Shown: in pieces, positions 30,430-61,898 of the stretch
Position numbering within the stretch: position 1 is the first letter of the stretch
Layout: each line of letters starts with the position of its first letter
DNA from: Semisulcospira habei
Taxonomy: Eukaryota > Mollusca > Gastropoda > Semisulcospiridae
Direction of reading: 5' to 3'
Assembly (NCBI GenBank): GCA_036245525.1
Contig: BTPG01000004.1
Location: forward strand, 163,375,025 to 163,439,024
Length of the DNA: 64,000 nucleotides
The notes under the pieces: model-generated
Databases searched by the model: none
What the model saw: only the letters and a program-made list of their open reading frames with translations
What the model was told of the DNA's origin: nothing
Translations under genes and position numbers: made by a program

Positions 30430-31206
30430 GAACCAAGAATGGCAAAGCCCTTAAGGCTCAATGCATGAATGACCCAGTTCTAACGTAAGTATAGGGTTTG
30501 CTTTTGTACTTGCAAAATCCATATTTTCTCAAAATGTTTGCATTTTTACACTTTTTGTCAATCTCCTGTTACCCTTGACCTTTGCGGTAGTGAAGCAAAA
30601 TAGCATGCATAGAAAGATCTTTGTCAGCTACCTCTCTGCCAAATTTGGATAAAAAGTTTTGCAAACATGCTGATAAAACTAACATTCTACTTTTTCACAC
30701 CATTTGCCGATCTCTTGTGACCCTTGACCTTTCTGAGGGGTTATCCAAATTAGCATGCATATGTCCATATCTCTGGACCGAGTTTGGGTTTGAAGCATTA
30801 AATAGTATTTAAAAAAACATTTTTTTCAAGAAATAGCTATGTTATCTATTTCCTGATCTCTTGTGACCCTTGACTTTTTCGGAGAGGTCATCCAAATTAG
30901 TATGCATAGGATGATATTACCATAAGGTATCTCTGTACCAAGTTTAGGTCTGAAGTTATGAACAGTATTTGAGAAGGAAAAAAAAAACATCTTTTGTCAT
31001 AATATGGCTTTTTTAAAAACCTATTTCCTGATCTCTTGTGACCCTTGAGTTTTCTGAGGGGTCATCCAAATTAGTATGTATAAAAAGGTCTTACCATCAA
31101 GTATCTCTATACCAAGTTTGGGTTTGAAGTTGAAAAAGTGTTTGAGGAGAAACAATTTGTGTGAAAATATGGCTGTTTTTTTTAAACACCACCAGAGAAA
31201 GTATAT
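30430..31206 (+). repeat. Tandem-unit element, left part, interrupted by Polinton
   Basis: Same leader and units as 24310-25480 (agaatggcaaagcccttaag, then about four units with tgacccttgaccttt and gtaccaagtttgggt boxes). The Polinton terminal repeat begins at 31207; the right remainder is at 48275-48480. Confidence 0.8.
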
Positions 31207-31509
31207 AGGAGAATACAACGACACCCATTTAAGAAACAATTGATTTATTTAATCCTTTCCGTAAATAAACAAACGCACTTGACCAAATTCATTTAACAGA
31301 TTTATCTGCCCAGTCAGGTCCCCCAACCCCTTGGAAACAAAAGGCTAGTTAAAATATCTTCCCGAGAAATACACACCACCCACCCACCCCCCCACACACA
31401 CACCCCCACACCCCACCACTCAATGCTGTCAGAGTTGGCCTTCCTGAGAAATAGTGTCTACTTCCTGTTCATACCACCATTGTAAACAATAGTCTTCTAT
31501 GCCCAAATA

Positions 31510-31558
<49 letters not shown>

Positions 31559-32190
31559 CACACAAAACAAATTAGCATTCCTTTTTGTGTCAACGCTTCA
31601 ATGTATGTCACTAAACCACTATGTCATTTTTCTTACTCTGGGGCAAACCAAAAATATAGAACAAATCTCTAATATAGGTTATTTCCCAAATGTGGAACAC
31701 CACGTCGTTCGTAAATGAAACGTCCAACGTGAAAATTTATCTGTGAAAAGTTTTCACTTCATGCATCGTGACTGCTGCGACGCACACGGACATTGCGCTG
31801 TTGAACAATCGGCCTTTGTGCTCAAGACTGTCGCGTGATGAAACCGGATTCCTGTTGGGTGCAGTTATTGCCGTCATAACCTGTAGGTAGAGACAGCTGT
31901 TGTGTAGTCATTGTTAGTTTACAAGATTGCATCTCTTTCATAACCAGAAAGTTGGGCTTGAAAATTGGTTGTGAAACGGTTTCCTGTTTTCGCTCCAGTG
32001 GGTGACATTTCTGAACAATAGGTCTTTATGCTTAAGCTATTGCGTAGTCACTGTCGCGTGATGCATTTAAATTGAAAGACAAAACCCAATAACTCTAATC
32101 CCAGTGATAGACCTAAATGATTCAAGTTACTAGTACACCCCTCCCTGTTTTTACGAGTGTTTTTAGATCACTCGAGGTGAAAATTGGGAA
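31207..32190 (+). repeat. Polinton left terminal inverted repeat
   Basis: Reverse complement of 47337-48274. The outer 800 bp (to about 32007) match almost base for base except for a longer (TC)n at 31512-31555 and small indels; the inner 180 bp are diverged, with shared islands such as cgcgtgatgcatttaaattg and ttttagatcactcgagg. Confidence 0.93.
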
Positions 32191-32361
32191 TGTTGAAATC
32201 GGTAGTGAAACTGTTACCTCAGTGAAACGACGCCTTTTATTTTCAGTTTAGTCCGTGTTTCAGCACAAGCGTGACGTGCCTACTAATACGTTCGGATTTT
32301 ATAGTGATTTCGGTATTCAAAATGGGCTGTGAAGGATTAAAACCAAGCTAAGTGAATACTT
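32191..32361. other. Spacer between left repeat and capsid gene
   Basis: Short non-coding stretch after the terminal repeat, before the 3' end of the capsid gene. Nothing recognised. Confidence 0.5.
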
Positions 32362-33645
32362 TTAATATATGTGACTACTTAGCCTGCTCTCAGAGATGTT
32401 TAGTTGCGCATCATAAATCAGATACAAATATATATTGATTGCTTCAGATTTTTCTGTTTTTTTCTGTATTTGAATTGAGATTCCGTCACTACCGTTTTCG
32501 ATAATACGGCCAGAACCATGAAGGAAATTGTCATCCGTAGAACGCAGATCTAGCCACAGTGCGTACTTGTCTGTCAGGTATTCACCGATTCTTACGTCAT
32601 ACAGATGCAGATCTTTGCACGCAATATTTGCTGATTTTTCTCTAAGTCTTCCCCCAGCAAAATACTTTGTGATCTCATCATAGTGCTGATATCCCATCAT
32701 TCCAGACGCAAAAATTTGATTAGGTCGGCCTTCGATTGTGCAGGATAAATGTGTAATTTTCGGATTATAGAATTTTTCTGAATCTCCTTGGTAAGGACTT
32801 TTTGGTTCAACAAATAACATAAGAACGCCTTTTAGTGACCTAGCAGGCGTGTTTAGGTTTATACTCCAAATTTGGTCGCTCTTGTCTTTGGGTAATAAAC
32901 TGTGTCTAATCACTCGATCATAATAAATTGGAAGTCTTGACTGGTACTGATTTTGAATGAGTCTGGCTAGTTCAGTATGCGTGACAATCTCATATTCCAA
33001 GGAAATGTTAGAGATCTTATATGATGCATTGAGATCCGTTGATTTGATAACTTTGGAGTAATCATTGAAGGTTAGTTCGAAGCTCAGGCGGTCATTTAGT
33101 GCCCCTTGGTAATAAGGCGAATGTCCTGTTAGGATTTCAAATTCGAGTGGAATGCAAAACCTATTTCCATATGTTTCGGCCACAATAACGTCCTTTCCTT
33201 CTGTGGTTGTTTTGTCTGATGCATTTATTCGAATTTTCATAATGCTATCTGACTGTATGCCTTGGTAAATACGATCTTCTCGTTCTTCTCTTGTAAGCCA
33301 CAAATCCGTGTAGCAGTAGAACACATCAGCATCGTCAAGACTAAACACTTCCTGTCCTTCAAGTTTAACTTTAATATTCTTAATAATTGCTCTACCTAGA
33401 TTGTTAACTAGTGTTCTTTTGTCATCTGCGTCCGATGAAAGTTCAATATTAAAAGCAAGGCGAGCAGTACCAGGAACAATAACGTCACTGGGGCCTAGGT
33501 TTGGAAACTTGACAGTAAGAGTCTGGTTTTGGTCTATAGTACTAGGATTGTTTGTGATGACAATTGATTGTCTAACTGCTTTAACACCGAAAGGTTCACG
33601 TAGTTTTCTGTGTGGGTCTAACTTTGATCCGTAGGACTGTGTCAT
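32362..33645 (-). CDS. MCP: Major capsid protein (double jelly-roll)
   Basis: 427 residues from the ATG at 33645; five upstream codons in frame have no ATG. It resembles the Polinton/adintovirus hexon-like capsid: QTLTVKFPNLG, VPGTARLAF, NLGRAIIKNIKVKLEG (about residue 81), SLDDADVFYCYTDLW, YGNRFCIPLEFEIL and LSFELTFNDYSKVI occur in the order known in that family. Family role: trimeric capsomer of an icosahedral virion. The frame is complete with no stop. It diverges from the coiled-coil gene with only 41 bp between start codons. Length is in the expected range for single-chain Polinton capsid proteins. C-terminus lies about 170 bp from the left terminal repeat. Confidence 0.88.
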   Translation of the reverse strand: MTQSYGSKLDPHRKLREPFGVKAVRQSIVITNNPSTIDQNQTLTVKFPNLGPSDVIVPGTARLAFNIELSSDADDKRTLVNNLGRAIIKNIKVKLEGQEVFSLDDADVFYCYTDLWLTREEREDRIYQGIQSDSIMKIRINASDKTTTEGKDVIVAETYGNRFCIPLEFEILTGHSPYYQGALNDRLSFELTFNDYSKVIKSTDLNASYKISNISLEYEIVTHTELARLIQNQYQSRLPIYYDRVIRHSLLPKDKSDQIWSINLNTPARSLKGVLMLFVEPKSPYQGDSEKFYNPKITHLSCTIEGRPNQIFASGMMGYQHYDEITKYFAGGRLREKSANIACKDLHLYDVRIGEYLTDKYALWLDLRSTDDNFLHGSGRIIENGSDGISIQIQKKTEKSEAINIYLYLIYDAQLNISESRLSSHIY

Positions 33646-33686
33646 TTTTATTATGCACAATAAAAAAAATTAAATTAATAAAAACA
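33646..33686. promoter_or_regulatory. 41-bp divergent intergenic region
   Basis: Separates the start codons of the capsid gene (minus) and the coiled-coil gene (plus). Reading outward it gives ataataaaaATG on the minus strand and ttaataaaaacaATG on the plus strand, so each start codon has the A-rich element seen across the whole Polinton. Any promoter for both genes must be here or inside the genes. Confidence 0.6.
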
Positions 33687-34910
33687 ATGGCCGCGGGAGG
33701 ATTTAATCATGAAGATTTTGAAATGGATGACACGTATGATTTTGGTAATACAACAGATATGGCAGATATGACTGGTACAAGAAATATTTACAGTTTACGT
33801 CATGAACTTTTAGAAACCAAAGTGAACTCATTTTATGATCATGTTGGTAATCGCCCAGACAACATAGACCCTAACCAGTTTGAACTTGATGGCAAGGGTC
33901 ATTTATATTTAAATACTGTTGACAAAGGAAAAGTACTATTGACTAACAAAAAAGACCCTAGTAGGTTTAGGGCTTTAAGTACAATAAAAAATGAAGGTGG
34001 TGTTAGTGCCTTGCGTCAACTTGGTATTGGTGGGTCTCCTATCACGCCAAGACTGGTTAGTGTGCTTCAAGACACGCAAACAAAGTTACCAACAGGGCAA
34101 GAAATTGAAATGGCACCAGTAACAAGCCTACCAGAAATAGCAAACACAGTGATACAAGAAACCTCATTTACTGAAGGACAAATAAATGACGCTTTGAAAA
34201 CAATAGATGATCCACCTTTGTCAATGCGGGAGATTATAGGGTTGGATAAATCACTGCAGACAATAAGAGGTGAGATGGTTAATAATCTTGCCAAACTGGG
34301 AGAGCTTGATAAACACATAGAACGTGAAAAAGAGAAACTGGCTACCGCAGACAATGGGAATTTTGACACAGAAATGAAAGAAAGAATCCAACACAGATTA
34401 AATGATTTGCAGATAGAAAGATCAGCGAGGTTAGAAGCGATTAGTATTGGAAGGGAAAAACTGAAATCACAGGTCAACAGAATAAGAGAAACTATTCAGA
34501 AAATACTTCACGAAGACACTACTCTGGCTGAGAGACTTAAAACACTTTTCAGAGAACAGGGTATCACAATTGCCAGTTTAATTACAGCTCTGGGGTTTAT
34601 TATCAGTACAGTTGTGTTGGCTGTAACGGGTGGTGGTTCTCCACCTCCAGCACCACCAACCCCAGTTCCCACAGATCCAAAAGACTTACAGTCGTGGGTA
34701 AAGAAACAGTTGTCACACATATCAGACTTGCTTAAGAAATTGGCTCTGAAAGCAGTAGACTCGTTACCTGGCATTTTAGGCACGGTTGTCAATTGGTTGA
34801 TTAGTACAGCGGCAAAGGCAGTAGGGTTTATGGCGGAGCATGTTTGGATCTTTTTGGTGACAGTAGGAGGGTTTTACCAATGCCATGCGTTGGTTTACAC
34901 ATCGCTGTGA
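33687..34910 (+). pseudogene. Polinton coiled-coil/membrane protein, 3' end disrupted
   Basis: ATG at 33687 (MAAGGFNHEDFEMDD). Order: acidic N-terminus, GGVSALRQLGIGG region, long coiled coil (about residues 175-285, rich in E/K/R/L, with ERSARLEAISIGREKL), hydrophobic ITALGFIISTVVLAVTGG, proline-rich linker, amphipathic KLALKAVDSLPG and a second membrane segment. The frame then runs into foreign sequence at 34876; the native last residues (GYLMKQ...) reappear after the insertion at 36118-36150. This protein is common in animal Polinton/adintovirus-type elements; exact role unknown, probably a membrane-active virion protein. About 396 of some 410 native residues remain before the break. Confidence 0.85.
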
Positions 34911-36117
34911 GGTTAGTTCTTTTTTTTGTTGGTTTGGGGTGGTGGTATTTGTTTTGGTTAGTCTTGTTGGGAGTTTGTGGTTGCATTTGTGTCTTACGTT
35001 TATGTGGGGGGATATGAGTGTTGTTGTGATGCGGTGTTAAATAATTAGCGTATTGGTTTTTTATGCATTTTTTTCGTGGGTAGCTCCGTTCTCTCTTTTC
35101 AGCTTTTACAAGTCTATTTACTACCTTGCCGCTAAAGTATTTCCGGAGCAGCTTCTCAAACTTTGGTTGTACATCAAAATTTGTTTTACTGTTTTTTAAA
35201 GTTCTTGGAATCCTGCTTTCTGGTCCTGCTTAGCAAGGGTTTTCCGGCGTGATACAGTTCCTTCCTGTAACAGCTTTTTTCATTTCTCGGGCCCTGTTCT
35301 TATAAGTTCTGTTGATGTTATCTTTGTTGAGTTAATGTAAATAAGTGTCATTTGACTAATAAAGCCTTCCGTATACAAGACAAAGCCTTTCTAATAATTT
35401 TAAAACCTCGTTTGCACAATACCCAGCACGCACCACTCCCCGCCGCCAACCCAGCACCAGATCCGACCCAAACACCCTCCAGATCGACCCTCCCCATCGT
35501 GCGATTGTTTTGCCCTTCGCCTCTCCCTCCCGCGCGCCCTCTCCCTTCCTTCTCCCTCCTCGTTCGTATCTTTCGTTTTCCTTATCTTGATTTCCTTTTT
35601 TTTTTTTCCAAGCCTTCCACTGTTTTAGCGACACAATTGATACTTGATAACTTTTTATTGGATTTATCGTTGTAAGTGGCTTCCTCTTGTTTGAGTTGTT
35701 AGCCCCTATTTGGTACTGTGTCGTGGCGGTGATTTTAAAACGGTCAGGATGTGGGGCGGTTGAAGCATGTAAGCTAGCCCGCGGTTTATAATATCGTTTT
35801 GTTGTTTTTGTTGTGTGATTTTTGGTGTAGTGCGTTTGGCCTCTGGCTGAACTACAAGGGAGTTGTTTCGCGATCTTGCTTTTGCTAGTTTTGTTTTGCA
35901 TCTACATATGTTTGGTTTCCTTGGGCATTTATCTTTGTGGGGATTGTTTTTTCTCTGAGTTTCTGAGGCAAAATCGTTATTCTTTCGTTAGTTTAGTGAC
36001 ATCTTTCTTTGACAGGGATTTAAGCTTTGGTTGTTTAGTTACTACGCGATTATTCTCCCCCTATGCTTTCCACCCCCCCTGAGGATGGTTGTGATGTNNN
36101 NNNNNNNNNNNNNNNNN
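34876..36117. mobile_element. 1.24-kb foreign insertion with gap, identity unknown
   Basis: Sequence from ttttaccaatgccatgcgtt to the N gap interrupts the coiled-coil gene: the decayed copy at 4190-4232 reads straight through the same point. It is T-rich on the plus strand with an AATAAA near 35360 and C-rich patches. No coding frame, terminal repeat or target duplication can be shown, partly because its right end is lost in the gap. An LTR or a mis-joined contig are both possible. Confidence 0.7.
36098..36117. other. Assembly gap, 20 N
   Basis: Twenty Ns between the foreign insertion and the resumed Polinton sequence (atgataggttatttaatg). The true gap length is unknown, so the insertion could be larger than it appears. 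Confidence 0.99.
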
Positions 36118-36129
36118 ATGATAGGTTAT

Positions 36130-37356
36130 TTAATGAAACAGGTAAAGAAGTAATATTCCTACTCCAGTAAGGCCAATTACCAATGCAGTTCTCTCGGATT
36201 CATGTGTGTCAGGGGTTGACTGTACTGGTTGTATAGCTGTTGGAGCAAGGGAAGTAATCACTTGTAATGTTTTTTTCAACTGTACGTGCACAGTTGTTCC
36301 TCCTAAATTTACAGATTTATTGAGACCTAGTTTTTGATCACTCCCAGCAACAATGATTTCATTATTATAATTTGTTATTGTACCCATTTGGAGTTGAAGG
36401 TCAGATGGTAACATGTATAACCCAGTGCCAACTACAAAGTCAACTTTTGATCTGGCATATCTGAGAACGTCTTGGTAGCGTTGTATGCTTGATGGGAGAT
36501 CAACTACTGAATTTACTGAATCTTCAAGATTAGCGAGAAACTGTTTTTGTGCTTCAAATTTACCACTTCCATTCAGAATATTAGATTTTGTTAATGATTG
36601 TGCACCTAGTATACACCAGACATATGTTCTGATAGACTCATTGACGCGCTCGACTCCTGCTTGAGTAAATCCGTCACTCCTGTCCAAGACAAATGTGGTC
36701 CACGCATTAGTCTGTTTCTGTTCAATTGAGCCTAACCACACTTCAGATTTTGATGAGAATGAAGTGTAGGGAGGCCAGTAATCTTGAGGGTATTGTCTGT
36801 GACTCAAAGCATAATATAATGTACCAATGCCGTGGTGATCATCAAGTTTTTGTGTGAAGTCATACTTAGTGCTTATGTTAAATTCATTACAGATGCGTTC
36901 AAATGCTTTCATATCCATGGGGTTGTTATACCTGTTAAAACTGGATTCAGTGGGTAGTGGTGTATGCAGTTCTGACAGTATACGTCTAAGCTGGTAATAA
37001 ACATGGAAACGATACACAGACCTAATCAGTTTGTTTGAGTGATTCAAATGGTCTGTAAATGAAACACCACAGCCTGTAGTAGAACACAGTATAGCAAAGT
37101 TGAGTTGGTTTTGAAACATCTGTAGTGGACTTGAAGACCACTTTCTTGCTGTAGCATCGTCTGTTATTGGAGGGTTTAGGTAATGATCAAAAGGGTTGGG
37201 TACTTTGACTTGAAATAAATCTTGTTCAGACACAGCAATATCAAGCTGATTTAACTGAATTATTTTCTGTTCATAAGTAGGTGCAACATTATATTTGGCA
37301 TTCACATTGAATTGAAATGCGTTTGTAGTGGTAATGGTTGGTGATTTAAATTCCAT
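36130..37356 (-). CDS. Polinton 408-residue C-terminally anchored protein
   Basis: Complete frame from ATG at 37356. Contains YEQKIIQLNQLDIAV, KVPNPFDHYLNPP, a conserved RVNESIRTYVWCILGAQSLT block (about residues 238-257), KQFLANLEDSVNSVVDLPSS, and GTGLYMLPSDLQLQMGTI with NNEIIVAGSDQ. Near the C-terminus a short variable linker leads to one membrane helix, ALVIGLTGVGILLLYLF. Same gene is present, decayed, at 4209-5483. Its last codons overlap antisense the end of the coiled-coil gene. Conserved in this class of element; no biochemical role is assigned. A single C-terminal anchor suggests a virion or inner-membrane protein. Confidence 0.8.
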   Translation of the reverse strand: MEFKSPTITTTNAFQFNVNAKYNVAPTYEQKIIQLNQLDIAVSEQDLFQVKVPNPFDHYLNPPITDDATARKWSSSPLQMFQNQLNFAILCSTTGCGVSFTDHLNHSNKLIRSVYRFHVYYQLRRILSELHTPLPTESSFNRYNNPMDMKAFERICNEFNISTKYDFTQKLDDHHGIGTLYYALSHRQYPQDYWPPYTSFSSKSEVWLGSIEQKQTNAWTTFVLDRSDGFTQAGVERVNESIRTYVWCILGAQSLTKSNILNGSGKFEAQKQFLANLEDSVNSVVDLPSSIQRYQDVLRYARSKVDFVVGTGLYMLPSDLQLQMGTITNYNNEIIVAGSDQKLGLNKSVNLGGTTVHVQLKKTLQVITSLAPTAIQPVQSTPDTHESERTALVIGLTGVGILLLYLFH

Positions 37357-37379
37357 CCTTTTTTTATGTGATAATAAAA
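37357..37379. promoter_or_regulatory. 23-bp divergent intergenic region
   Basis: Only 23 bp separate divergent start codons. Outward readings are cataaaaaaaggATG (minus) and gtgataataaaaATG (plus). The corresponding region of the decayed copy (5484-5510, 27 bp) keeps both A-rich elements. Confidence 0.6.
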
Positions 37380-38093
37380 ATGTTTATTACCTTAACAAAT
37401 CTTGACACAAGCAAACCAATGTGGTTAACTAATGGGATTGATAATCGTGATGGTAGCAAGGCTGTAGCTATCCATGAAATGTTCTACACAGTAAAGTGGT
37501 TTAATGTAACGGATGATGAAAATTATTCTGTAAGTGGAACTCTTGATGGTATTGAGAAGGGTGATACTTTACGAGCCGGATATTATGACTTTTGTACTTT
37601 AGCTGAATGGCTTCAAAATGAATTTAAAATTAAAGCAACTTTAAACCCAGCTAATTTACTTGTTTCAATTGATTTTCCGAAAAGTGGTCAGTTTTCTTTA
37701 TCAATTAGTCTTTTATTATTACTTGGATTTTTTAAAACAATAACACATCCAGATGAAGATTGGTCACAATCAGTTGGTAGTCTACTATCACCAAAAAAAC
37801 CAAGAATAACTGGCAGATATCCTGTTCATTTGTCAGTACACACAGTGCTAAATGTTCATTTGAAAGAACTGAACACTACTGAAAATGTACACAATGGAAA
37901 GCCTTCAACTTTGTTAAGATGCTTGCCGACTGGAACTGCCCCATATTGTGAAAATGTGGTTGCTAGATTTCCTAATTCTCAGTTTAAAAAATTAGGTTCT
38001 AGTTTCTTTGAATCATTGTGCTTATCTGTAACTAATCAGAATGGTAAACCAGTTGTAATGCATGATTTTTATGTTGTTTTGGAAATTAAATAA
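37380..38093 (+). CDS. Putative minor capsid (penton-like) protein
   Basis: 237 residues from ATG at 37380 (upstream in-frame GTG rejected). The C-terminal half has the pattern LSVHTVLNVHLKEL, NGKPSTLLRCLPTG, FFESLCLSVTNQNGKPV and HDFYVVLEIK. This matches my recollection of the conserved strands of Polinton/adintovirus penton-type minor capsid proteins (LLR-x-P, then an I-x-L-x-D-x-x-G-x-P strand pair at the C-terminus). By family role it would form vertices together with the major capsid protein. Single jelly-roll fold is inferred, not shown. First of a run of same-strand genes through the integrase. Confidence 0.55.
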   Translation: MFITLTNLDTSKPMWLTNGIDNRDGSKAVAIHEMFYTVKWFNVTDDENYSVSGTLDGIEKGDTLRAGYYDFCTLAEWLQNEFKIKATLNPANLLVSIDFPKSGQFSLSISLLLLLGFFKTITHPDEDWSQSVGSLLSPKKPRITGRYPVHLSVHTVLNVHLKELNTTENVHNGKPSTLLRCLPTGTAPYCENVVARFPNSQFKKLGSSFFESLCLSVTNQNGKPVVMHDFYVVLEIK

Positions 38094-38113
38094 TTTTATT
38101 TTTGTTTATAAAA

Positions 38114-38998
38114 ATGAGTGGTCTTGGTCCAAAGCCGAGAATCATACCAGTTGCGTGTCCAGTAACAGAGTTGAAAGATTTGGCAGACGTACAGGATTTT
38201 GAGAAAGAGGGAGAAATTGGAGAAATATATGGTTTTGAACTTGATTCCTATGGCATGTACAAGAGAAAAGTAATTGTTGACATGAAAGATGGTGAAAGAC
38301 AGATTCCTAAACTTGGTCAGCTACGTGATGTTACTGTGCCTGTTGCGCCTAATCTTGTAAATAATGTGCCCTACAACTTAATACATGTGGGTACTAAATG
38401 GGTTGTTTCACCTGTACCGGCACCACCACCCACAATTGACTGGGACATAAAGATTGAATTTATTAGTCCTTATGTATACACTGATGATGAAGGCGCCTTA
38501 GTGTTTAGGAAGGTTGTTAATTCTGGGCCGCTTATTGTAAGCCTTGTTCCAAGTTTTGCCCTAGACAACAATAGCAGAGAAAAACTGAAAGTTGAAAATT
38601 ATGAGAAACGAAGATATCTTCTTACAACTAGAAAGGGTAGATCAGATACTTCTGTTGTGTTTATGCCAGCAAGCTTAGTCGTGGCTAGAGAAGCGACAAT
38701 AGTATTTGAAATTATCATGAAATCTGTTGCTACTGCTAAAGAGGCTCAAATTGCACAAGGAATTAAACTTACATGGGATGAAACAGTATCAGAATCATCA
38801 AAGGTCTTTATTGCTATTACAAAAAATAATGATGTTATTAATGTTTCGAGCAGTATTCCAGCTGTCAAGGTGGTGGTTGACAAAACAACTTTTGTTCGTC
38901 TAACTTACATAAACCTTGAACACATTGATCTTGTTGCATTTTATTATGCCAGCAAATTGTATAATTTTGAAGAGTTGCAAAATGTAATTGCTGATTAA
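38114..38998 (+). CDS. Polinton 294-residue conserved protein, unknown function
   Basis: ATG at 38114 (MSGLGPKPRIIPVACPV) after ttataaaa, 20 bp after the previous stop. No catalytic motif, no clear membrane helix. It has a proline-rich SPVPAPPPTIDWDIKIEF stretch about a third of the way in and ends FEELQNVIAD. The close counterpart at 6630-7505 is also open. Position among capsid-type genes suggests a structural role; that is inference. Confidence 0.75.
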   Translation: MSGLGPKPRIIPVACPVTELKDLADVQDFEKEGEIGEIYGFELDSYGMYKRKVIVDMKDGERQIPKLGQLRDVTVPVAPNLVNNVPYNLIHVGTKWVVSPVPAPPPTIDWDIKIEFISPYVYTDDEGALVFRKVVNSGPLIVSLVPSFALDNNSREKLKVENYEKRRYLLTTRKGRSDTSVVFMPASLVVAREATIVFEIIMKSVATAKEAQIAQGIKLTWDETVSESSKVFIAITKNNDVINVSSSIPAVKVVVDKTTFVRLTYINLEHIDLVAFYYASKLYNFEELQNVIAD

Positions 38999-39019
38999 AA
39001 AAATATTTGTAAATAAAAA

Positions 39020-39655
39020 ATGGTGAACTTGTATCCACAAATACCACCTGAGCAGCTTGAGCCTATTGAGCGTGATAAAACATTAAAGGCAGATTCATTT
39101 CATTTAATGAATATTACAGAAGCGTTGAAGTATTTGGAAGAAGAACAAGCAAAATACTCGAGGTGTAAACGCCGTTACAATACGGTTTTCAATTCTGTAC
39201 ACAACACATCAATGGCCATGGGGGTGTTTTCAGCCGGATTATCTGTAGGAGGTATAACTCTTTTTGCAACGGGGGTGGGAAGTGTTATAGGAATTGCTGT
39301 TGAAGGTATTGGTCTTGTCACAAGTCTAGCATGCTTTGGTATGGAAGCCATTAACAAAAGATTTTATATGAAGTTGCAGAAGCATGAAGCATTAAGTACG
39401 CTCGCAGCAGCTAAGCTGACGAGTATAAAACTTATTATTAGTAAGGCTTTGGAAAATAATGAAATTGATGACGAAGAATTTAAGCGAGTCCAGGATGATT
39501 TGGCTAACTATAAACAACAAAAATCTGAAATACAGAATAAGATGCGTAGTCAGGCTGTAAATGTTGAAGAGCTAAAGAAATCTTTTTTAGAACAAGGAAA
39601 AAAGATAGGCGTAGAAGAAACTATGAAAAAAGTTCGAGAACTTACAAGCAAGTAA
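39020..39655 (+). CDS. Polinton 211-residue hydrophobic protein
   Basis: ATG at 39020 after gtaaataaaaa, 21 bp after the previous stop. Order: short N-terminal region with LMNITEALKYLEEE, KYSRCKRRYNTVFNSV, two glycine-rich hydrophobic segments (FSAGLSVGGITLFATGVG and IGIAVEGIGLVTSLACFG), INKRFYMKLQKHEALSTL, then a charged helical C-terminus (IDDEEFKRVQDDL). This Cys-Arg-Arg-Tyr plus GVG plus KHE arrangement recurs in animal Polinton-like elements. The paired hydrophobic segments suggest membrane insertion, perhaps membrane penetration. Followed in the -1 frame by a late-domain peptide. Confidence 0.8.
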   Translation: MVNLYPQIPPEQLEPIERDKTLKADSFHLMNITEALKYLEEEQAKYSRCKRRYNTVFNSVHNTSMAMGVFSAGLSVGGITLFATGVGSVIGIAVEGIGLVTSLACFGMEAINKRFYMKLQKHEALSTLAAAKLTSIKLIISKALENNEIDDEEFKRVQDDLANYKQQKSEIQNKMRSQAVNVEELKKSFLEQGKKIGVEETMKKVRELTSK

Positions 39656-39756
39656 CGATAGGTTTTGGTAATCCATTATTTTTGTCATACACTTCGCAAA
39701 GAGATGTCATGCCTGCTCATTTGACGCCATCAGCTCCACCACCAGATTATTACTAA
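39568..39756 (+). CDS. Short frame with overlapping PSAP and PPDY late-domain motifs
   Basis: Open for 62 codons, -1 relative to the 211-residue gene, beginning inside it and running 100 bp beyond its stop. No in-frame ATG precedes the conserved part. A basic stretch (RTRKKDRRRR) lies in the overlap; the distal part reads FGNPLFLSYTSQRD and ends PSAPPPDYY. PSAP binds TSG101 and PPxY binds NEDD4-family ligases in budding viruses (established for retroviruses and others). The same frame in the decayed copy (8537-8728) keeps the motifs. Expression by frameshifting, splicing or a non-AUG start is open. Confidence 0.55.
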   Translation, partial: RAKEIFFRTRKKDRRRRNYEKSSRTYKQVTIGFGNPLFLSYTSQRDVMPAHLTPSAPPPDYY

Positions 39757-39823
39757 AAAAAAGTTTTCTTATTGTCCTTGTAACTTGAGAAATCTGTCCG
39801 AGTGTCTTATGACTTGGGTTAAG

Positions 39824-39902
39824 AACTTATGATAACTAACGTCAAAGTTACTTGTAAGTTGTAGGTAACTTTGAAATTAGTTATCAAGTAAGATCATAAG
39901 TT
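39824..39902. promoter_or_regulatory. Nested intergenic stem-loop
   Basis: Perfect complementary blocks nest around one centre: aacttatgat/atcataagtt, ataactaa/ttagttat and tcaaagttac/gtaactttga, with a loop of about 13 bases. It lies between the late-domain frame and the 115-residue gene. The decayed copy has a different but also repeat-rich hairpin here (ggtaac/gttacc near 8870). Candidate transcript 3' end or processing signal. Confidence 0.6.
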
Positions 39903-39940
39903 ATTCACAGGTAAAGTTTTTTTTTTTTTTCATTATAAAA

Positions 39941-40288
39941 ATGAATCAAGACGAATTACTTCTTCTAAACGATATCTGTGCTGTAGAGAACAAAGACGTA
40001 GACTCCAAAAAACAGCGGCTTTTGTCTGTAATTGTCTCAGGCAAATCAAAGACTTATCTAGGAAGACAATACATGATAGAGGATATTGAATCTCTAACCT
40101 CTGACGAGCTAATCAAGCTTCATTCTAAATATGAAAACCACATTGCCTCACTAATGACACGTGATTTAAGCAGGTCTATAATATTCCTATATACAAAAGC
40201 TGTAAGTCATTTCCTACCTGTGGATAGTGACAGTCTATCACACGACCTTGAAAGCAATCCTATTGTTTCAGTTCAATTGGTAAATTAG
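39941..40288 (+). pseudogene. Polinton small protein (115 residues), probable 3' frameshift
   Basis: ATG at 39941 after cattataaaa. Contains KTYLGRQYMIEDIESLTSDE and MTRDLSRSIIFLYTKAVSHF then LPVDSDSLSHDLESNP, a pattern familiar from Polinton-like elements in other animals. The frame stops at 40288, but the -1 frame continues immediately with a hydrophobic segment (MFYKFGNYLAPVVTLLV, 40300-40350) of the sort expected at the C-terminus of this family. I therefore read it as a single-base break, or a programmed shift. Product role unknown. Confidence 0.65.
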
Positions 40289-40396
40289 CATGTGTCATGT
40301 TTTACAAGTTTGGAAATTACCTTGCACCTGTCGTAACCCTTCTTGTTACTGGGAGTCATATTGATTTTTCGAAAATAAATTTTACTGCAGAAGAAA

Positions 40397-40846
40397 ATGG
40401 ACGAAACCCAGGCGACTCCACAACTGAACCCTGTTTTGACACAGGTTCAAACTGTGACGAAGACTAAAAGTCCAGGCCGTGTTGATGCTGGAAAAAGATT
40501 AGCTGAATATAATAGGCAAAAAAAATTACAGCTTAAGGCACAAACAGAAAAGACTCATGTAACTGATCCACCGTCAGGATCGTCAGGACCTGTGTCAGTA
40601 CCGTCACACCTTCATGAAAGTGAGAGACAAACAACTAAGTCTGACCCTGACCCCGAACCTCAAACAACAAAATATGTAGTTGCCGGATTTGTTGTCGGAT
40701 TTGGTTACGTAGGTTATCAATTATACAAAAAATACAAACCACAGACTCGTACAGTGACCAAAAAATCAGACACTCCAAAAACAAAACCAGAAGTCGCCAC
40801 ATTACCAGTAACATCCAAAGCCGTTGACCCATTTTTTATGCAGTAA
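40397..40846 (+). CDS. Polinton 149-residue single-pass membrane protein
   Basis: ATG at 40397 after aagaaa, the least typical start context in the element (AATAAA is 20 bp upstream). The N-terminus includes DAGKRLAEYNRQKKLQLKAQ, a basic helical stretch; a Ser/Pro/Glu-rich middle; one hydrophobic segment (YVVAGFVVGFGYVGYQLY, about residues 94-111) followed by KKYKP, so probably anchored with a basic inner flank. Similar AGK-x-LAEYN proteins occur in other Polinton-type elements. Role unknown. Confidence 0.7.
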   Translation: MDETQATPQLNPVLTQVQTVTKTKSPGRVDAGKRLAEYNRQKKLQLKAQTEKTHVTDPPSGSSGPVSVPSHLHESERQTTKSDPDPEPQTTKYVVAGFVVGFGYVGYQLYKKYKPQTRTVTKKSDTPKTKPEVATLPVTSKAVDPFFMQ

Positions 40847-40881
40847 ATAAAAATATTATTTTAATTTTTCTTGCCTAAGAA

Positions 40882-41110
40882 ATGAACGACTCAAAAAATT
40901 TAATGAACCTTGTGTATCACTGCCGTAATCAGCGGATTAGCAGTAGCTTATTCTATGCTGGGAAAAAGTCTACTCAAAATGAAATCAGCAGACCTCAGTA
41001 GACTCGATTTCGAAGACAGCACTAAGCTAATTGTAGTTGTTACAGCGTCGATTGCGACAAAAGACTTTCTTGTCAAGCAGGGAATTATTCCTGAAAATGT
41101 TTCTATGTAA
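40882..41110 (+). pseudogene. Polinton small membrane protein, frameshift near start
   Basis: An ATG at 40882 (MNDSKNLMNL) is followed by a frame that soon stops, while the +1 frame from about 40910 encodes CITAVISGLAVAYSMLG, a membrane helix, then KSADLSRLDFEDSTKL and IVVVTASIATKDFLVKQGI. The open frame itself has only a TTG-type beginning or an internal ATG at 40955. A one-base indel near 40905 is the simplest reading. Homologous short proteins with a TM helix and a V-x-ASIATK motif occur in related elements. Confidence 0.6.
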
Positions 41111-41121
41111 ATAAAAATATT

Positions 41122-41556
41122 ATGGCGACGATAGCTATTATGATAGGAGGTGCTATGGTTAATGCTCTGGCATTTAGTGGCTCTAATTATCTCTTTTCAA
41201 AAATGGGTAGAGAAGAATCTGCAGAAGAATTAAAACGTCATAATGAAGCATCTGAAAAACTTGCTCAAGCCCAGCAAGATTATGAAAAGAATAGAATTGA
41301 GAAACTTGATTTCATCAATGAAAAACTCAGGCTTGAAGGTCACGCACAGCATACGTTTTCAAATACAGACGAAGCAATCCGTGAGTATTTTTTAGTCACG
41401 GGTGAAGATATGTCTATCCCAAAACCAAAACTAAGTGACTATTACAAACCAAGCACACAACAAAGAAACGGGGAGATAATCTTTGTTCTAGTGGGAATGA
41501 CATTTGTTTATTTTACAGGAGTTTTCATTGCTAGAAAAAATGGCAGCCGAAAATAA
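41122..41556 (+). CDS. Polinton 144-residue two-helix membrane protein
   Basis: ATG at 41122 after aaataaaaatatt. N-terminal hydrophobic segment IAIMIGGAMVNALAFSGSNYLF, then a charged coiled-coil part with ELKRHNEASEKLAQAQQDYE, RIEKLDFINEKLR, and IREYFLV; C-terminal membrane helix IIFVLVGMTFVYFTGVFIA followed by RKNGSRK. The NALAFSGSNYLFS plus KRH plus LDFIN pattern is widespread in Polinton/adintovirus-like elements. It overlaps the integrase start by 17 bp. Function unknown; probably a virion membrane protein. Confidence 0.75.
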   Translation: MATIAIMIGGAMVNALAFSGSNYLFSKMGREESAEELKRHNEASEKLAQAQQDYEKNRIEKLDFINEKLRLEGHAQHTFSNTDEAIREYFLVTGEDMSIPKPKLSDYYKPSTQQRNGEIIFVLVGMTFVYFTGVFIARKNGSRK

Positions 41557-42499
41557 ACTATCAAAAATATATTACTCTCCATCAGGCTATTGGAAAGGAG
41601 CAACAGCTATTCAGAAATTACATGCCGCTGTGGGCGGAGATATAACACTCAATCAAGTCAAGCAATGGTTACAGAGACAGGCAATTTGGCAGATATATTT
41701 ACCTGCTCCAAGAAAAATAACAAGACCCCATTTTGAAAACACTACCCCAAATGACACACACCAAATGGACCTCCTGTTCTTACCACATGACACAATAAGA
41801 AAGAAACGATACAAGTATGCACTGACTGTTGTAGACATTGCTTCAAGGTATAAAGACGCTGAACCCATATCTGACAAAACAGCCAGTACAGTTGCTACAG
41901 CATTAACAAAAATATATGGTCGAGGCCCTTTAAGATACCCCAGACTAGTGCAGGTTGATGACGGATCAGAATTCAAAGGTGCAGTTAATCAGTTATTTGC
42001 TAAGCATGGCATACTGGTCAGACGCGGTATTCCAGGTGTGCACAGATCACAGGCAATTGTAGAAAATTTCAATAAACAGTTGTCAGAGAGACTTTTCAGT
42101 TACCAGTATTCTAAGGAACTCATGCATGACACCCGTAACACGGAGTGGGTTAAGAGATTACCACATGTGATAAAAGCAATGAATAATGAAGGACACCCTA
42201 AGCCTGCTGATGCTATTAAATTGAAAACAATTGCAGAGCCAAAAAAAGGGCCAACCCCACCTCCAGACACAAGTTTATTTACCAAACAGGTGAGATATTT
42301 ATATCAACCAGGGGAAGCTGAAAATGACATAAGACGCAGGGCGACAGACCCCATCTGGTCAACATCTGTTCATAATATAAAAAAAATAATCCCTGGTCCA
42401 GACGCAACAATATATTATCTGTATGAGCCTGCGCCTCAGAGGGCATTTGTCAGAGAAGAATTACAGATTATTCCCCCAGACACCGTTACGCATTTTTAA
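41540..42499 (+). CDS. INT: Retroviral-type (RVE) DDE integrase
   Basis: 320 residues from ATG at 41540. N-terminal region has YYSPSGYWKGATAIQKLHAA; the RVE core carries D77 (HQMDLLF), D140 (VQVDDGSEF) and E175 (AIVENFN), with 34 residues between the last two. A C-terminal barrel-like region follows (FTKQVRYLYQPG ... AFVREELQIIP). Family role: joins the element's ends to host DNA with 6-bp staggered cuts, leaving 6-bp duplications. All catalytic residues are present and the frame is intact. The last 14 bp overlap the end of the polymerase gene on the other strand. Confidence 0.93.
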   Translation: MAAENKLSKIYYSPSGYWKGATAIQKLHAAVGGDITLNQVKQWLQRQAIWQIYLPAPRKITRPHFENTTPNDTHQMDLLFLPHDTIRKKRYKYALTVVDIASRYKDAEPISDKTASTVATALTKIYGRGPLRYPRLVQVDDGSEFKGAVNQLFAKHGILVRRGIPGVHRSQAIVENFNKQLSERLFSYQYSKELMHDTRNTEWVKRLPHVIKAMNNEGHPKPADAIKLKTIAEPKKGPTPPPDTSLFTKQVRYLYQPGEAENDIRRRATDPIWSTSVHNIKKIIPGPDATIYYLYEPAPQRAFVREELQIIPPDTVTHF

Positions 42500-45400
42500 T
42501 CATTTCATCAACTAACTCATTGATTAGTTCATCAACCAGTTCATCAGCTATTTCTTCAGATAACTTGAGCCTGTAATGACCAGGTGCATAAGCTTTCTCC
42601 TTACTGAAAAACACTCGTTTCGTGTCCCCTACTGCTAGAGACTTCTTTTGTGTTTGAATCATTTCAATATTGTGTCTATTTGACCTCAGTGTTTTGTTTG
42701 GATAATCAGGCATCAGTTCTCCATCTAACACTTTCTTGTAATGTTCATGACGGATGTCTTTATTTTTTATTGCTGTTTTTTTAATTCCTTTGGCTTTGGA
42801 TTGACTTCCCTTTTGATGCAGTATAGAATACATTTTTGATCTCAGTCCAACATACTCAACTATAGGCACACCATTTAGTTCATCTTTAAACTTACCAGGC
42901 ACTTTCTTGTTTTGTGTGTTGAACAGTGGATGGTCTTTAGGGTAATCAGATGTGTCATACATGTGTAACTCTGTTTTCATGTCTTCATAAAAGTCTTCAG
43001 TAGGCACGTCTATGATCATAGAGTCAGTGTCAGTGTATAGCAGACGACACTCAGGATACTTCGGTTTAAAGTAATCATAATAAAATTCAAGCATCAACAG
43101 TTTTGACAACTCCAGAATTGCCATACCAATGAATACTGGCTTGTCTAGTTTAACAATCTTTTTTTTGAGTGACACTGCATACAATGATGAATGAAATTCT
43201 TTGTACCCTGTGTACTGTGGCTTACCTGTAAGTTTAATTGCACCTGATTCAGTTGTAACCAGTCTCACATCTTTGCGGTGATGAGGATTTTCCATCGTCT
43301 TACCAAAACAGGCATTGTTCATAAGCTTAAAGAAGTCTTTGTCAAATGCAGTGTTGCCGTCTCTGGCACGCAATGTGGTGTTCTTCATTATGTAATCTTT
43401 CATGAAAGCACTCTGATCAAATTGAATTCCTCTGTGAACTTTCTTTAGTACTAACCCATGTCTGATGTAAAACTGCAACAAGCGATAGTGACACACGTAA
43501 TTGAATTTATCATTTAAATTTGGTACAAGTTTGGTGTCTTCTTTTTTCCCCGTCATACTCATTTTCTCAACAGCCAACGGATAATCATTGTGGTAATCAT
43601 GTAGGTGGTGTGGGTACTCCAGGTCTACTTCAAAGATCCAACCCTTTTCATCATTTTGACCTCGATCCATAATATATTTTGTTAATTTTTTTATACCATA
43701 CTGTGACAAATCATACAAACAAAAGTTTTTTAATGGTAATAATTCACACATCGCGAATCCGTACAAATTGTTAGCGTCCACGTACGTAATAAATGACCTT
43801 GGCTTTGAGGGGTCAAAGTCATCAAGATATTTATTATTTGCCTTGGCATAATTGTTTGCTGCTAGACTAATCCCTCCCCTCAATCCACGTTCCACCATTT
43901 CACCCATCGTACGATCAGACAACAGGTCTATAAATATCTTACTGGATTTCAAAAATGCATCCCATGTCATGCCAGGACTAGTGATGTAACAAGCAGGGTC
44001 AAGCTTGTAGTGTAACAAACCCTTTTCACGGTAACTTTCAAATATATCTGCTAGCAAGCAAACGTCAGCTTTCAAGTACTGGTCGTGATAGTCACCAATT
44101 GTTTGACATCCTAACTTCCCCCATGCATCAAGTGCGTGTTGATATTCAGAGTCAGAAATACCTTTGCCAGTTAGTGTAGAATAAAATTTCTCTTTTGGTG
44201 GCAGTCTTGTTTCTTCAAACACAACCCAGTCACTGATGTACTCATATGGATAAACACCTTTTTTAATCAAGTCCGGCTCAAAATATTTACTTGTTATTGG
44301 ATACTCAGTCAGTCCTTCTGCTAGACTAGCCAACCCTAAAGACAGATGTTGCATAGAGTCATAAAATGCTAATTTATCTAACCTAAAAGTCAAGTATTTC
44401 TCAGTTGTCTGGGCAATACAACTTATGTTTCTGTACGACTCATCCACAGCCTGCATGATAATATGTGAATCATATCCTTTGAGATTGTGGAAAAAGATAG
44501 GTAACTTATATGTCTTAGGATCTATTTTTAATAATAAGTTACAATTGCTATGTGCAGCACCTCTGTAACATCCAGTTATGTGATCATGGTCACGAACTTT
44601 ATCACCCCCCAGAGGCTGTTCACAAATCCAACACATCTCAGCTGTATCAAATTTCAGTTTGTCTTCTTCTGTCATCACTAAAGGCATCTGACATGTTGTG
44701 AGATACTGTACTACCTGACTATACAGATGTCTCATTTCTGTTAAAAACAGACATGCTGCATTTTCACCTCTGTAGATAACAGGCTCTGAATGAAGACCGT
44801 CTGACCTAACAATAATGTATCCAAAAGAACACACCACTTGGTCACTCAATTTTATAGTCTTTGGTAATGACTCTGGAATTGGACCTTCATATGGAACGAC
44901 GAGTGATTCAAAATCTGCGTATACTACAAATGGCAGCTTTTGTTGATTAACATAGTTCTTGAAATAAACCTTGCTGCCAGGATCTGGATACCTAAGTATT
45001 GTTTGAATGTCATCAGCCGACCTACAGTGCTGGGTATGCTTATGTGCCACTTTTATACAGGAGAATCTTTGTAAACATCTCTTACACACTTCCTGTTTAC
45101 CATTATGTTTTGATACATGATTATGAATTAGACGTGACATATTTCTGATAATTGTGTAGTGAAAGTTATCACCAGAGCTTATTAGCAACATATCAACATG
45201 TTTATCTTCTGACTGTCCATATGTTGGGGCAATTGGTGATACTCTAATTGGCTGTAACTTATTCTCTGACTCATTTTCCCACACATACACATTCACAGAT
45301 ATATCAGGATTTAGTTTTTCAAACAAGTCTATGTCCTCTATTTTAACAGGGAACTCAATGCCACTGAAGTTGAGTTCGTTTATAAATTTGGTATAGTTAG

Positions 45401-45911
45401 ATACACGTTCAGGTTTTGTTTTTACAAAATGAAGTTTAGAAAGCACACACCACATGAAACATAAATTATCATTGTTCTGAATATTGACGACAGCCTTTTT
45501 TTTTGCAACCTCAGTTGGAAGTGGTATCCATGATTTGCCTAAAATAGGATGATATCTTGACTGCTTTAGTTGTAGTTCATGTACAAGGCCTTCATGCCAG
45601 CCAGACCCTTGCATTTCTGCTCTGTCAATTGCTTCATGGAAGTCTGGTAACAATCTTTCTCTAAACACTTTCTCTAGTTCTCTTCTCGAATTAACTGTGT
45701 GCTGCCTTGTCGAGATATACGTTACAATAACTTCACCAACATCTCTGACAAATTCTATTTTTGCAACAATCTGAATCTTTACACTATCAGAAAGAAGGTT
45801 ATTTTGTATGACTAAAAAAGATCTTTCTATTGATTCATAGACATTGTAAATATTATATATAGGTAAGTCAGTTGTGTGAAACACGTTTCTTAATCTTTGA
45901 CGGTTGTCCAT
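42486..45911 (-). CDS. POLB: Protein-primed family B DNA polymerase
   Basis: 1141 residues, uninterrupted. N-terminal domain with a Cys in NNDNLCFMWCVL (C151) and a His in DNFHYTII (H251), similar in layout to OTU-like cysteine proteases; zinc-finger-like CKRC-x10-H-x5-C (about 276-296); exonuclease motifs YADFESL (331), NLKGYDSHI (476) and YLKADV (612); an inserted Cys/His segment CWIC ... RDHDHITGCYRGAAHSNC (427-457), HNH/endonuclease VII-like; polymerase motif A YVDANNLYG (710), motif B FKLMNNACFGKTMEN (861), motif C LLYTDTDSM (958). Family role: replicates the linear genome from a terminal protein primer. Start ATG follows aaataaaaaag. Confidence 0.96.
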   Translation of the reverse strand: MDNRQRLRNVFHTTDLPIYNIYNVYESIERSFLVIQNNLLSDSVKIQIVAKIEFVRDVGEVIVTYISTRQHTVNSRRELEKVFRERLLPDFHEAIDRAEMQGSGWHEGLVHELQLKQSRYHPILGKSWIPLPTEVAKKKAVVNIQNNDNLCFMWCVLSKLHFVKTKPERVSNYTKFINELNFSGIEFPVKIEDIDLFEKLNPDISVNVYVWENESENKLQPIRVSPIAPTYGQSEDKHVDMLLISSGDNFHYTIIRNMSRLIHNHVSKHNGKQEVCKRCLQRFSCIKVAHKHTQHCRSADDIQTILRYPDPGSKVYFKNYVNQQKLPFVVYADFESLVVPYEGPIPESLPKTIKLSDQVVCSFGYIIVRSDGLHSEPVIYRGENAACLFLTEMRHLYSQVVQYLTTCQMPLVMTEEDKLKFDTAEMCWICEQPLGGDKVRDHDHITGCYRGAAHSNCNLLLKIDPKTYKLPIFFHNLKGYDSHIIMQAVDESYRNISCIAQTTEKYLTFRLDKLAFYDSMQHLSLGLASLAEGLTEYPITSKYFEPDLIKKGVYPYEYISDWVVFEETRLPPKEKFYSTLTGKGISDSEYQHALDAWGKLGCQTIGDYHDQYLKADVCLLADIFESYREKGLLHYKLDPACYITSPGMTWDAFLKSSKIFIDLLSDRTMGEMVERGLRGGISLAANNYAKANNKYLDDFDPSKPRSFITYVDANNLYGFAMCELLPLKNFCLYDLSQYGIKKLTKYIMDRGQNDEKGWIFEVDLEYPHHLHDYHNDYPLAVEKMSMTGKKEDTKLVPNLNDKFNYVCHYRLLQFYIRHGLVLKKVHRGIQFDQSAFMKDYIMKNTTLRARDGNTAFDKDFFKLMNNACFGKTMENPHHRKDVRLVTTESGAIKLTGKPQYTGYKEFHSSLYAVSLKKKIVKLDKPVFIGMAILELSKLLMLEFYYDYFKPKYPECRLLYTDTDSMIIDVPTEDFYEDMKTELHMYDTSDYPKDHPLFNTQNKKVPGKFKDELNGVPIVEYVGLRSKMYSILHQKGSQSKAKGIKKTAIKNKDIRHEHYKKVLDGELMPDYPNKTLRSNRHNIEMIQTQKKSLAVGDTKRVFFSKEKAYAPGHYRLKLSEEIADELVDELINELVDEMIKNA

Positions 45912-46023
45912 CTTTTTTATTTGTCCGACAAAAAAATAAATAGAAAATTATATAATGAAAATGGCACTTTATTGACTGTAACTCCTACAAAACAGATTTG
46001 TTTACACACTGACTCAATCATCA

Positions 46024-46368
46024 TTATTGTATGTGTAATACCATTTTATTAAATGTAATATCGTTAAAATATAAATTTATTTTATATAGTTCTTTTGCTA
46101 AATTACTACACAATTTAGTAAACCAACCATCGTAATATTCGTTAACAGTAAATGATTGTGTCTTAATATCAACAGTTATTTTTTTAATAAATGGATTATC
46201 AACACATAAAGTTATATTACCAGACATATACACTGTTGTTGGTAACATAAATAAATTACCAGGTGACTCTCTATTATTAAGCTGGCTTTCATATTTAACA
46301 TCTTTAAAGCAATGTGTAATATCTATGATTTCACTAATAGGCCAATTTTGTCTGTCTGTCAATGTCAT
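46024..46368 (-). CDS. Polinton 114-residue protein, unknown function
   Basis: ATG at 46368 (MTLTDRQNWPISEI) after ctttaaaa; six earlier in-frame codons begin without ATG. Contains HCFKDVKYESQLNN, LFMLPTTVYMSGNITLCVDN and KITVDIKTQSFTVNEYYDG, mostly beta-strand-like, no membrane helix. It sits between polymerase and ATPase on the same strand, 27 bp after the ATPase stop, so probably co-expressed. No family recognised; not protease-like. Confidence 0.65.
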   Translation of the reverse strand: MTLTDRQNWPISEIIDITHCFKDVKYESQLNNRESPGNLFMLPTTVYMSGNITLCVDNPFIKKITVDIKTQSFTVNEYYDGWFTKLCSNLAKELYKINLYFNDITFNKMVLHIQ

Positions 46369-46395
46369 TTTTAAAGACAAACCCAAAAGTATAAA

Positions 46396-47001
46396 TTAAT
46401 TCACTAACCCATACCCTGTAGGTTGATCTGTCTTTAAAATGAGCTTTAGATGCTTAGTTGATTTCAGTTTATTTTTTACATCATCCCGTTCTTGCTTATT
46501 TGGAATGACATCGTTCTCTCTGAGACAGTCTTCAAAGCTGTCACGGTCCTTACAGTAAAACAAACAGATAAACTTTAACTGTTCTCGAAAATCTTTCAGT
46601 ACAGTATTATATTTCTGAGTGAGAATCCATACACTTATGTTTGCATGTCTGCCACTGAAGGCAAGTTCTGCTAATATGTTTCTCTTTTTGACAATGTCTT
46701 TCTCTGCAGAACAGTCATCGACTATGAACAATGTTGGCTGTCCTTCAAATTGCTTGTATAAATATAGCAGGTAATCATTCAGTTTTTTCTCAGGGTCGAC
46801 TAAGTATATGTTGTTGTCAGTCCAAATGAATAAACGGTTGTGATAAGCTTTGTTGTGTTTGATTGTTGGACAAAATATTACAATGTTTTCGAAATGATGA
46901 AGGTATCTTGTTTGTAAGAGGTTAAGAACAAATTGAGTTTTTCCACAGCCCGTGGCACCGGCAAATAAGCCGCAATGTGGGTCATGCGTCATTAAGTCCA
47001 T
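46396..47001 (-). CDS. ATP: Packaging ATPase (A32/FtsK-HerA type)
   Basis: 201 residues from ATG at 47001 (after gtttttaaa). Walker A GATGCGKTQ (residues 15-23), Walker B TLFIVDDCS (D95, D96), and a TQKYN sensor-like motif about 30 residues after Walker B, as in A32-like ATPases of Polintons and large DNA viruses. Family role: pumps the genome into preformed capsids. Frame intact; length is typical of the compact Polinton form. Confidence 0.92.
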   Translation of the reverse strand: MDLMTHDPHCGLFAGATGCGKTQFVLNLLQTRYLHHFENIVIFCPTIKHNKAYHNRLFIWTDNNIYLVDPEKKLNDYLLYLYKQFEGQPTLFIVDDCSAEKDIVKKRNILAELAFSGRHANISVWILTQKYNTVLKDFREQLKFICLFYCKDRDSFEDCLRENDVIPNKQERDDVKNKLKSTKHLKLILKTDQPTGYGLVN

Positions 47002-47336
47002 TTTAAAAACACAATATAATCTGTTTGTACAAAAACACTATGCTTGCCTTTCTGGTTATAAAAGGGGTTTCAAACTAACCACTCACACCGCAAGCCTTAT
47101 AATAATGACTACGAAAAGCTTGTCTGGTTTTATTTATGGTGTGCGGTCTGTGATTTTAGACCTTACGCCCAGAAGCTGCAAGGTCCAAAATCACAGATAG
47201 GTCCGCCATTATCATGTTGGTTGGGTAAACAAGGTAATAAAACGCACGCAACACAAATGTCCGTGATCTGGTTTCAATTTAAATGCATAACACGACAAGG
47301 CAATGTCCGTGATCTGGTTCAAAGTAACAAATCACA
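47002..47336. promoter_or_regulatory. Spacer between ATPase and right repeat, with hairpin
   Basis: Non-coding. A stem of 17-bp arms with one mismatch (tctgtgattttagacct, 47147-47163, and aggtccaaaatcacaga, 47181-47197) has a 17-base loop. Two direct repeats of aatgtccgtgatctggtt lie near 47258 and 47301. Could contain the leftward promoter for ATPase, the 114-residue gene and polymerase. Confidence 0.5.
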
Positions 47337-48274
47337 CCCGATTTTCTCCTCGAGTGATCTAAAACACTTGTAAACATGATGGGGTGTATACTAAATTGAA
47401 TAATTGAGGTCTCTCCTGGGATTAAAGTTGTGGGTTTCAATTTAAATGCATCACGCGACAGACTAATAAATAACTGTATGAAAGGCTGATTGTCACCCGC
47501 TGGAGCGAAAACAGGAAACCGTTTCACAACCAATTTTCAAGCCCAACTTTCTGGTTATGAAAGAGATGCAATCTTGTAAACTAACAATGACTACACAACA
47601 GCTGTCTCTACCTACAGGTTATGACGGCAATAACTGCACCCAACAGGAATCCGGTTTCATCACGCGACAGTCTTGAGCACAAAGGCCGATTGTTCAACAG
47701 CGCAATGTCCGTGTGCGTCGCAGCAGTCACGATGCATGAAGTGAAAACTTTTCACAGATAAATTTTCACGTTGGACGTTTCATTTACGAACGACGTGGTG
47801 TTCCACATTTGGGAAATAACCTATATTAGAGATTTGTTCTATATTTTTGGTTTGCCCCAGAGTAAGAAAAATGACATAGTGGTTTAGTGACATACATTGA
47901 AGCGTTGACACAAAAAGGAATGCTAATTTGTTTTGTGTGTGCAGAGAGAGAGAGAGAGAGAGAGAGACACTATTTGGGCATAGAAGACTATTGTTTACAA
48001 TGGTGGTATGAACAGGAAGTAGACACTATTTCTCAGGAAGGCCAACTCTGACAGCATTGAGTGGTGGGGTGTGGGGGTGTGTGTGTGGGGGGGTGGGTGG
48101 GTGGTGTGTATTTCTCGGGAAGATATTTTAACTAGCCTTTTGTTTCCAAGGGGTTGGGGGACCTGACTGGGCAGATAAATCTGTTAAATGAATTTGGTCA
48201 AGTGCGTTTGTTTATTTACGGAAAGGATTAAATAAATCAATTGTTTCTTAAATGGGTGGGGTTGTATTCTCCTA
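47337..48274 (-). repeat. Polinton right terminal inverted repeat
   Basis: Reverse complement of 31207-32190. Near-identical from 47491 outward, with a shorter (GA)n at 47944-47968 than its left counterpart; diverged but alignable inward to about 47337. Ends GTTGTATTCTCCT at 48274. Confidence 0.93.
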
Positions 48275-48480
48275 TATTGTATCTCTCCACCCCCCCCCCT
48301 CCCCCTCCTGGACCCCCTGTGACCAAGTTTGGGTTTGAAGTTGTGAATAGTACATGTATTTGAAGAAGAAAATATGTTGGTCAAATATGGCTATTTTTGA
48401 CTTATTTCCAGGTCCTCTGTGACCTTGACCTTTGAGAGAGGTCAATGAAACTGGTATGATTAGAAAGGTCTTGAGACTCT
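48275..48480 (+). repeat. Tandem-unit element, right part, after Polinton
   Basis: After a short poly-C stretch, caagtttgggtttgaagttg and tgaccttgacctttgagaga boxes match the units at 25220-25400 and 30890-31180. This is the continuation of the element split by the Polinton. Confidence 0.75.
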
Positions 48481-60455: not shown

Positions 60456-60503
<48 letters not shown>

Positions 60504-60595
60504 CAATGAATCAATGAATCTTTATTTTACAACGCTGAAGATATTAACACAGTCAGGGATTATGTCATTTTTTTTCGTACCTGCCGTTGATCCAC

Positions 60596-60679
<84 letters not shown>

Positions 60680-61630: not shown

Positions 61631-61705
<75 letters not shown>

Positions 61706-61800
61706 GAGAATCAATGAATCAATGAATCTTTATTTTACAACGGTGAAGATATTAACACAGTCAGGGATTATGTCATTTTTCGTACCTGCCGTTGGTCCAC

Positions 61801-61898
<98 letters not shown>

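Follow-up and report, generated by a model that had tools for sequence, protein, structure and literature searches.

A slightly damaged, probably young Polinton in the genome of the gastropod Semisulcospira habei

What kind of element occupies the middle of a 64,000-nt stretch of the Semisulcospira habei genome, and how much of it is still in working order? The stretch, hereafter the window (contig BTPG01000004.1 of assembly GCA_036245525.1, forward-strand positions 163,375,025 to 163,439,024), had been read from its letters alone as holding a near-intact Polinton/adintovirus-like element at 31207-48274. We conclude, with a probability of roughly 0.9, that 31194-48286 is a recently inserted Polinton/Maverick of 17,093 nt. 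Virus-like mobile elements of this type are familiar, and the present one is a slightly damaged young Polinton. The original prediction placed it correctly, with limits 12-13 nt short of the ends of the terminal inverted repeats (TIRs). The TIRs themselves bear out what had been claimed for them: the left arm (31194-32007) has 814 nt and the right arm (47491-48286) 796 nt, both start with AGAGA, and 790 of the 814 alignment columns are identical. The arms are distinguished by 18 extra nt in the (TC)n run of the left arm and by six mismatches (left-arm positions 6, 8, 9, 27, 28 and 806). Long TIRs and a size of about 15-20 kb, as expected of a Polinton, are thus both found.

The insertion site can be read from the flanks. 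CCACC stands directly outside both ends (31189-31193 and 48287-48291, identical) and is a candidate 5-bp target-site duplication; an early idea, that the element ends without any duplication, was abandoned once this motif was seen on both sides. Of 3136 pairs of 5-mers taken one from each 60-nt flank, 7 are equal, which makes the duplication suggestive, short of proof. Joining the flanks with the 5-mer present once gives 360 nt, of which nt 1-342 form a single alignment with a satellite array at 25011-25362 (70.7%, E-value 9.5e-39). Both flanks are one satellite array with its spacing kept, and the exact pre-insertion bases are not recovered. Satellite-like units of about 150-180 nt common to the two flanks lie at 24450-25389, 30543-31190 and 48317-48472.

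Four genes carry the identification, and their frames are open, as had been predicted. The major capsid protein (32362-33660, reverse strand) is a double jelly roll by structure. The RVE integrase (41504-42499, forward strand; rve 5.7e-11) is matched by PDB entries of retroviral integrases (best E-value 9.8e-08) and has the catalytic residues D75, D138 and E173 (numbered in the 317-aa form), 34 residues separating the last two. The packaging ATPase (46396-47001, reverse strand) is of the A32/FtsK type, with a Pox_A32 match at 5.7e-15 and Walker A and B motifs. The protein-primed-type family B DNA polymerase (PolB; 42486-45911, reverse strand, 1141 aa) shows, all in order, an OTU-like Cys/His pair, motifs I-III, A, B, C and KxY, and an endonuclease-VII-like stretch, where we take I-III to be exonuclease motifs, A to KxY palm motifs, and the Cys/His pair OTU-like. 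The OTU-like domain is represented by its Cys and His motifs only (residues 146-154 and 250-253), and the endonuclease-VII-like stretch matches PHROG 423 at 3.6e-06. Both an OTU-like domain and inserted homing endonucleases are described for Polinton PolBs in the available part of PMC11071308; according to the same source, mavirus-type virophage PolB lacks the exonuclease domain, whereas the PolB encoded here has exonuclease motifs. The animal Polintons/Mavericks (Polintoviricetes) have in common with it the TIRs and the size, a PolB that has OTU-like and endonuclease stretches, an integrase of RVE type, an ATPase of A32 type and a double jelly-roll capsid, as far as the family is described in the parts of PMC11071308, PMC4028283 and PMC8097293 available to us. 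Gene order differs from the two-module layout of vertebrate Mavericks given in the last of these.

Two further proteins may belong to the particle. The product of 37368-38093 (forward strand) is a probable penton, or minor capsid protein, judged by its size, position and resemblance; a PDB profile search with this candidate single jelly-roll protein returned no match, and it has 11 homologues. Next to it, 36130-37356 (reverse strand) encodes a conserved, helical 408-aa protein with a hydrophobic C-terminal segment, for which no fold match was found.

Outside the window, IMG/VR yielded no relative for the capsid protein (alone or aligned), the 408-aa family, the ATPase, the integrase or PolB (alone or together with the contig described next), and such scans reach close relatives only, so that virions are not excluded. 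When bacterial and archaeal genomes were scanned, a single one of the 48 pattern matches was a relative, a 4.6-kb contig (L001, positions 1-4602) filed under a Diapherotrites metagenome-assembled genome (MAG), which holds pieces of the capsid gene, the ATPase gene, a small gene and the PolB gene. Its ATPase matches at 5e-13 and its PolB piece is 44% identical over aligned columns. The contig is probably a stray of eukaryotic or viral origin that entered the archaeal MAG through a binning error. Two homologues (P0045 and P0104) are likewise filed under MAGs of Candidatus Thiodiazotropha, a group of lucinid clam symbionts. P0002 and P0122 stem from 13,209-nt contigs that represent complete relatives. 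Among molluscs, Mavericks were present in all genomes examined (PMC10294476) and are listed for the hard clam (PMC8905726), according to the available parts of these reports.

A second copy within the window offers a view of the family over time. At 3722-8784 (forward strand), 22 kb from the main element, lies a decayed sister copy of 34410-39814, 74-89% identical and broken up by other repeats; two of the interruptions in the match are filled by a dispersed repeat about 290 nt long. Near 39131, the identity falls from 84-89% to 74%. A related PolB gene fragment at 41-227 (reverse strand) is inverted relative to 45392-45578 and 85.6% identical to it over 187 nt. The ratio of nonsynonymous to synonymous divergence (dN/dS) is 0.07-0.28 in six sister-copy comparisons over well-conserved codons, two of which are pieces of one gene; the trimming removes columns of poor conservation and is therefore biased to low dN, and the untrimmed values are 0.14-0.47 in five comparisons. 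Third codon positions account for 196 of the 323 differences in the trimmed comparison. Together, the low ratios and the third-position excess point to purifying selection on the family genes during some or all of the period since the copies diverged. Because dS between the copies spans 0.19 to 1.46, the sister copy also appears to be mosaic in ancestry.

How intact, then, is the element? Most of its genes are kept, but the description as near-intact is weakened: one gene is broken, another changes frame, no protease was detected, and an assembly gap lies inside. The one large insertion announced earlier corresponds to 1,224 nt (34874-36097) that are extra relative to the sister copy. The gene at 33612-34910 (forward strand), an open frame with coiled-coil-like sub-threshold matches and one hydrophobic segment, ends in this insert, which takes the place of its last codons and has its 3' edge at a gap of 20 Ns (36098-36117); beyond the gap the element resumes. 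Concerning the two small frameshifts, one was recovered. The small gene at 39881-40467 (forward strand) is split over two frames, and is one gene with a frame change, because frame 39881-40288 matches residues 4-95 (E-value 6e-21) and frame 40252-40467 residues 97-125 (E-value 4e-05) of a single protein of the 4.6-kb contig. No second frameshift was found among the genes compared with an intact relative, which were not all of them. With one gene cut by the insert and another changing frame, the element has probably lost its autonomy, unless the damage consists of assembly errors; the missing functions could come from family members at other sites in the genome. In the available part of PMC8097293, an intact Maverick has eight conserved unbroken open reading frames (seven in Xenopus), TIRs and a 6-bp target-site duplication. 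The copy described here departs from that definition, and from Polintons/Mavericks generally, in its unfound protease, its cut gene with the insert, its frame change and a candidate duplication of 5 bp.

Several observations weigh against the identification as a Polinton or against its completeness. Neither Pfam nor PHROGs gives a name to the capsid and probable penton proteins, and sequence searches of Pfam, NCBIfam and the PDB do not identify PolB as a polymerase. Our Pfam scans covered 21 of 65 stop-to-stop frames of at least 60 aa, including all 17 of at least 120 aa, and gave no match to a C5/C48 (C5/Ulp1-type) protease in these frames, where a diverged protease is possible; a protease motif scan gave a single, spurious match within the ATPase. 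The full catalytic gene set of the original prediction was therefore an overstatement. The C5/Ulp1 protease is one of four genes named as the Polinton core in the available part of PMC3671162. According to the available part of PMC4028283, however, only 74% of 72 elements had an identifiable one. A lack of the protease would be compatible with Polinton membership, and its absence here is not proven. At the termini, five of the six TIR mismatches fall in the outer 28 nt (31194-31221 and 48259-48286) and one in the approximately 770 inner nt, a clustering that departs from the expectation of uniform mutation and for which we offer no explanation. The candidate duplication has 5 bp rather than 6, since the 6-mers at the two ends differ, and lies at a C-rich site where chance matches come more easily; for vertebrate Mavericks, 6-bp duplications and ends of (AG)3 or (AGT)2 are described in the available part of PMC8097293. 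Around the junction of the joined flanks, about 43 nt (47 nt on the array side) are without a match to the satellite.

The strongest reservation concerns the internal assembly gap. If everything up to about 36097 came from one family copy and everything from 36118 on from another, joined in scaffolding, each half would be genuine but the near-complete element would not be one molecule. Such a chimera would fit the position of the gap, at the very point where the match to the sister copy sets in again, as well as the differences between the TIR arms in the (TC)n run and in the outer 28 nt. Yet the same satellite family occupies both flanks with preserved spacing, CCACC is found at both ends, and the arms otherwise differ by a single mismatch in about 770 nt; because of this flank and TIR evidence, we consider the chimera very improbable. 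Another alternative, which we regard as doubtful, is that 34874-36097 is no insertion at all but host DNA lying beside a truncated copy and attached by the assembler. In favor of this, the segment occurs only once in the window and lacks inverted repeats, its longest frame gives no Pfam match beyond an E-value of 0.12, and on its 3' side it ends at the gap. A genuine insertion of unrecognised sequence would look alike, however, and the flanks favor one locus.

It is also unlikely, if less so than a chimera, that the element is a recently integrated exogenous virus, an endogenized adintovirus, rather than a member of a genome-resident Polinton lineage. Adintoviruses have the same types of capsid and ATPase, an integrase and an OTU-bearing PolB, and the near-identical TIRs would suit such an origin. 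In contrast, their definition (PMC11071296, in its available part) names an integrase with a C-terminal chromodomain, besides a PolB whose OTU-like domain is N-terminal and a hexon that reciprocal BLASTp links to reference adintoviruses, and no chromodomain was found in the integrase encoded here, a Pfam scan at E-values up to 1 returning rve alone. Moreover, the decayed sister copy suggests long residence of the family, and the IMG/VR scans, though limited in reach, gave no relative. Of the double label Polinton/adintovirus-like, we therefore retain the Polinton identity, together with the recent insertion, and not the adintovirus.

The remaining open frames of the Polinton have no assigned function. 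On the forward strand these are 38102-38998, which is open in the sister copy too, 39020-39655 with one hydrophobic segment, 40397-40846, the short frame 40907-41110, and 41122-41556 with two hydrophobic segments; 46024-46386 is on the reverse strand. Elsewhere in the window, the repeat of about 290 nt occurs in five direct copies (5567-5859, 7703-7995, 20540-20832, 27103-27395 and 28111-28403; 72-93% to the first) and one inverted copy near 1786-1970, two copies interrupting the sister Polinton. Frames at 13774-19053, judged by eye, resemble a non-LTR (long terminal repeat) retrotransposon with reverse transcriptase, endonuclease and zinc-knuckle protein, and reading seems unbroken across a gap of 20 Ns (17070-17089) within them. 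An array of units of about 170-190 nt around long (GA)n runs fills 60456-62518.

Beyond the TIRs, the genes and motifs, the capsid fold and the flanks from one satellite array, which are directly observed here, the family literature suggests how such an element would propagate. PolB would copy the linear DNA from its ends using a protein primer, which the OTU-like domain may release; the capsid protein, probable penton and ATPase would package the DNA into virions, and the RVE integrase would join the TIR ends to host DNA. Two concrete questions arise for this lineage, one concerning the undetected protease and the other the conserved 408-aa protein. As a tentative possibility, the element might belong to a widespread Polinton lineage that dispenses with a C5/Ulp1 maturation protease in building its capsid and carries the 408-aa protein, helical, probably tail-anchored and of yet unsolved fold, perhaps for capsid assembly or membrane passage. 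That a young Polinton has kept its capsid genes, and that selection between two family copies appears to have been purifying, further supports the view that such elements spread as functional units resembling viruses.
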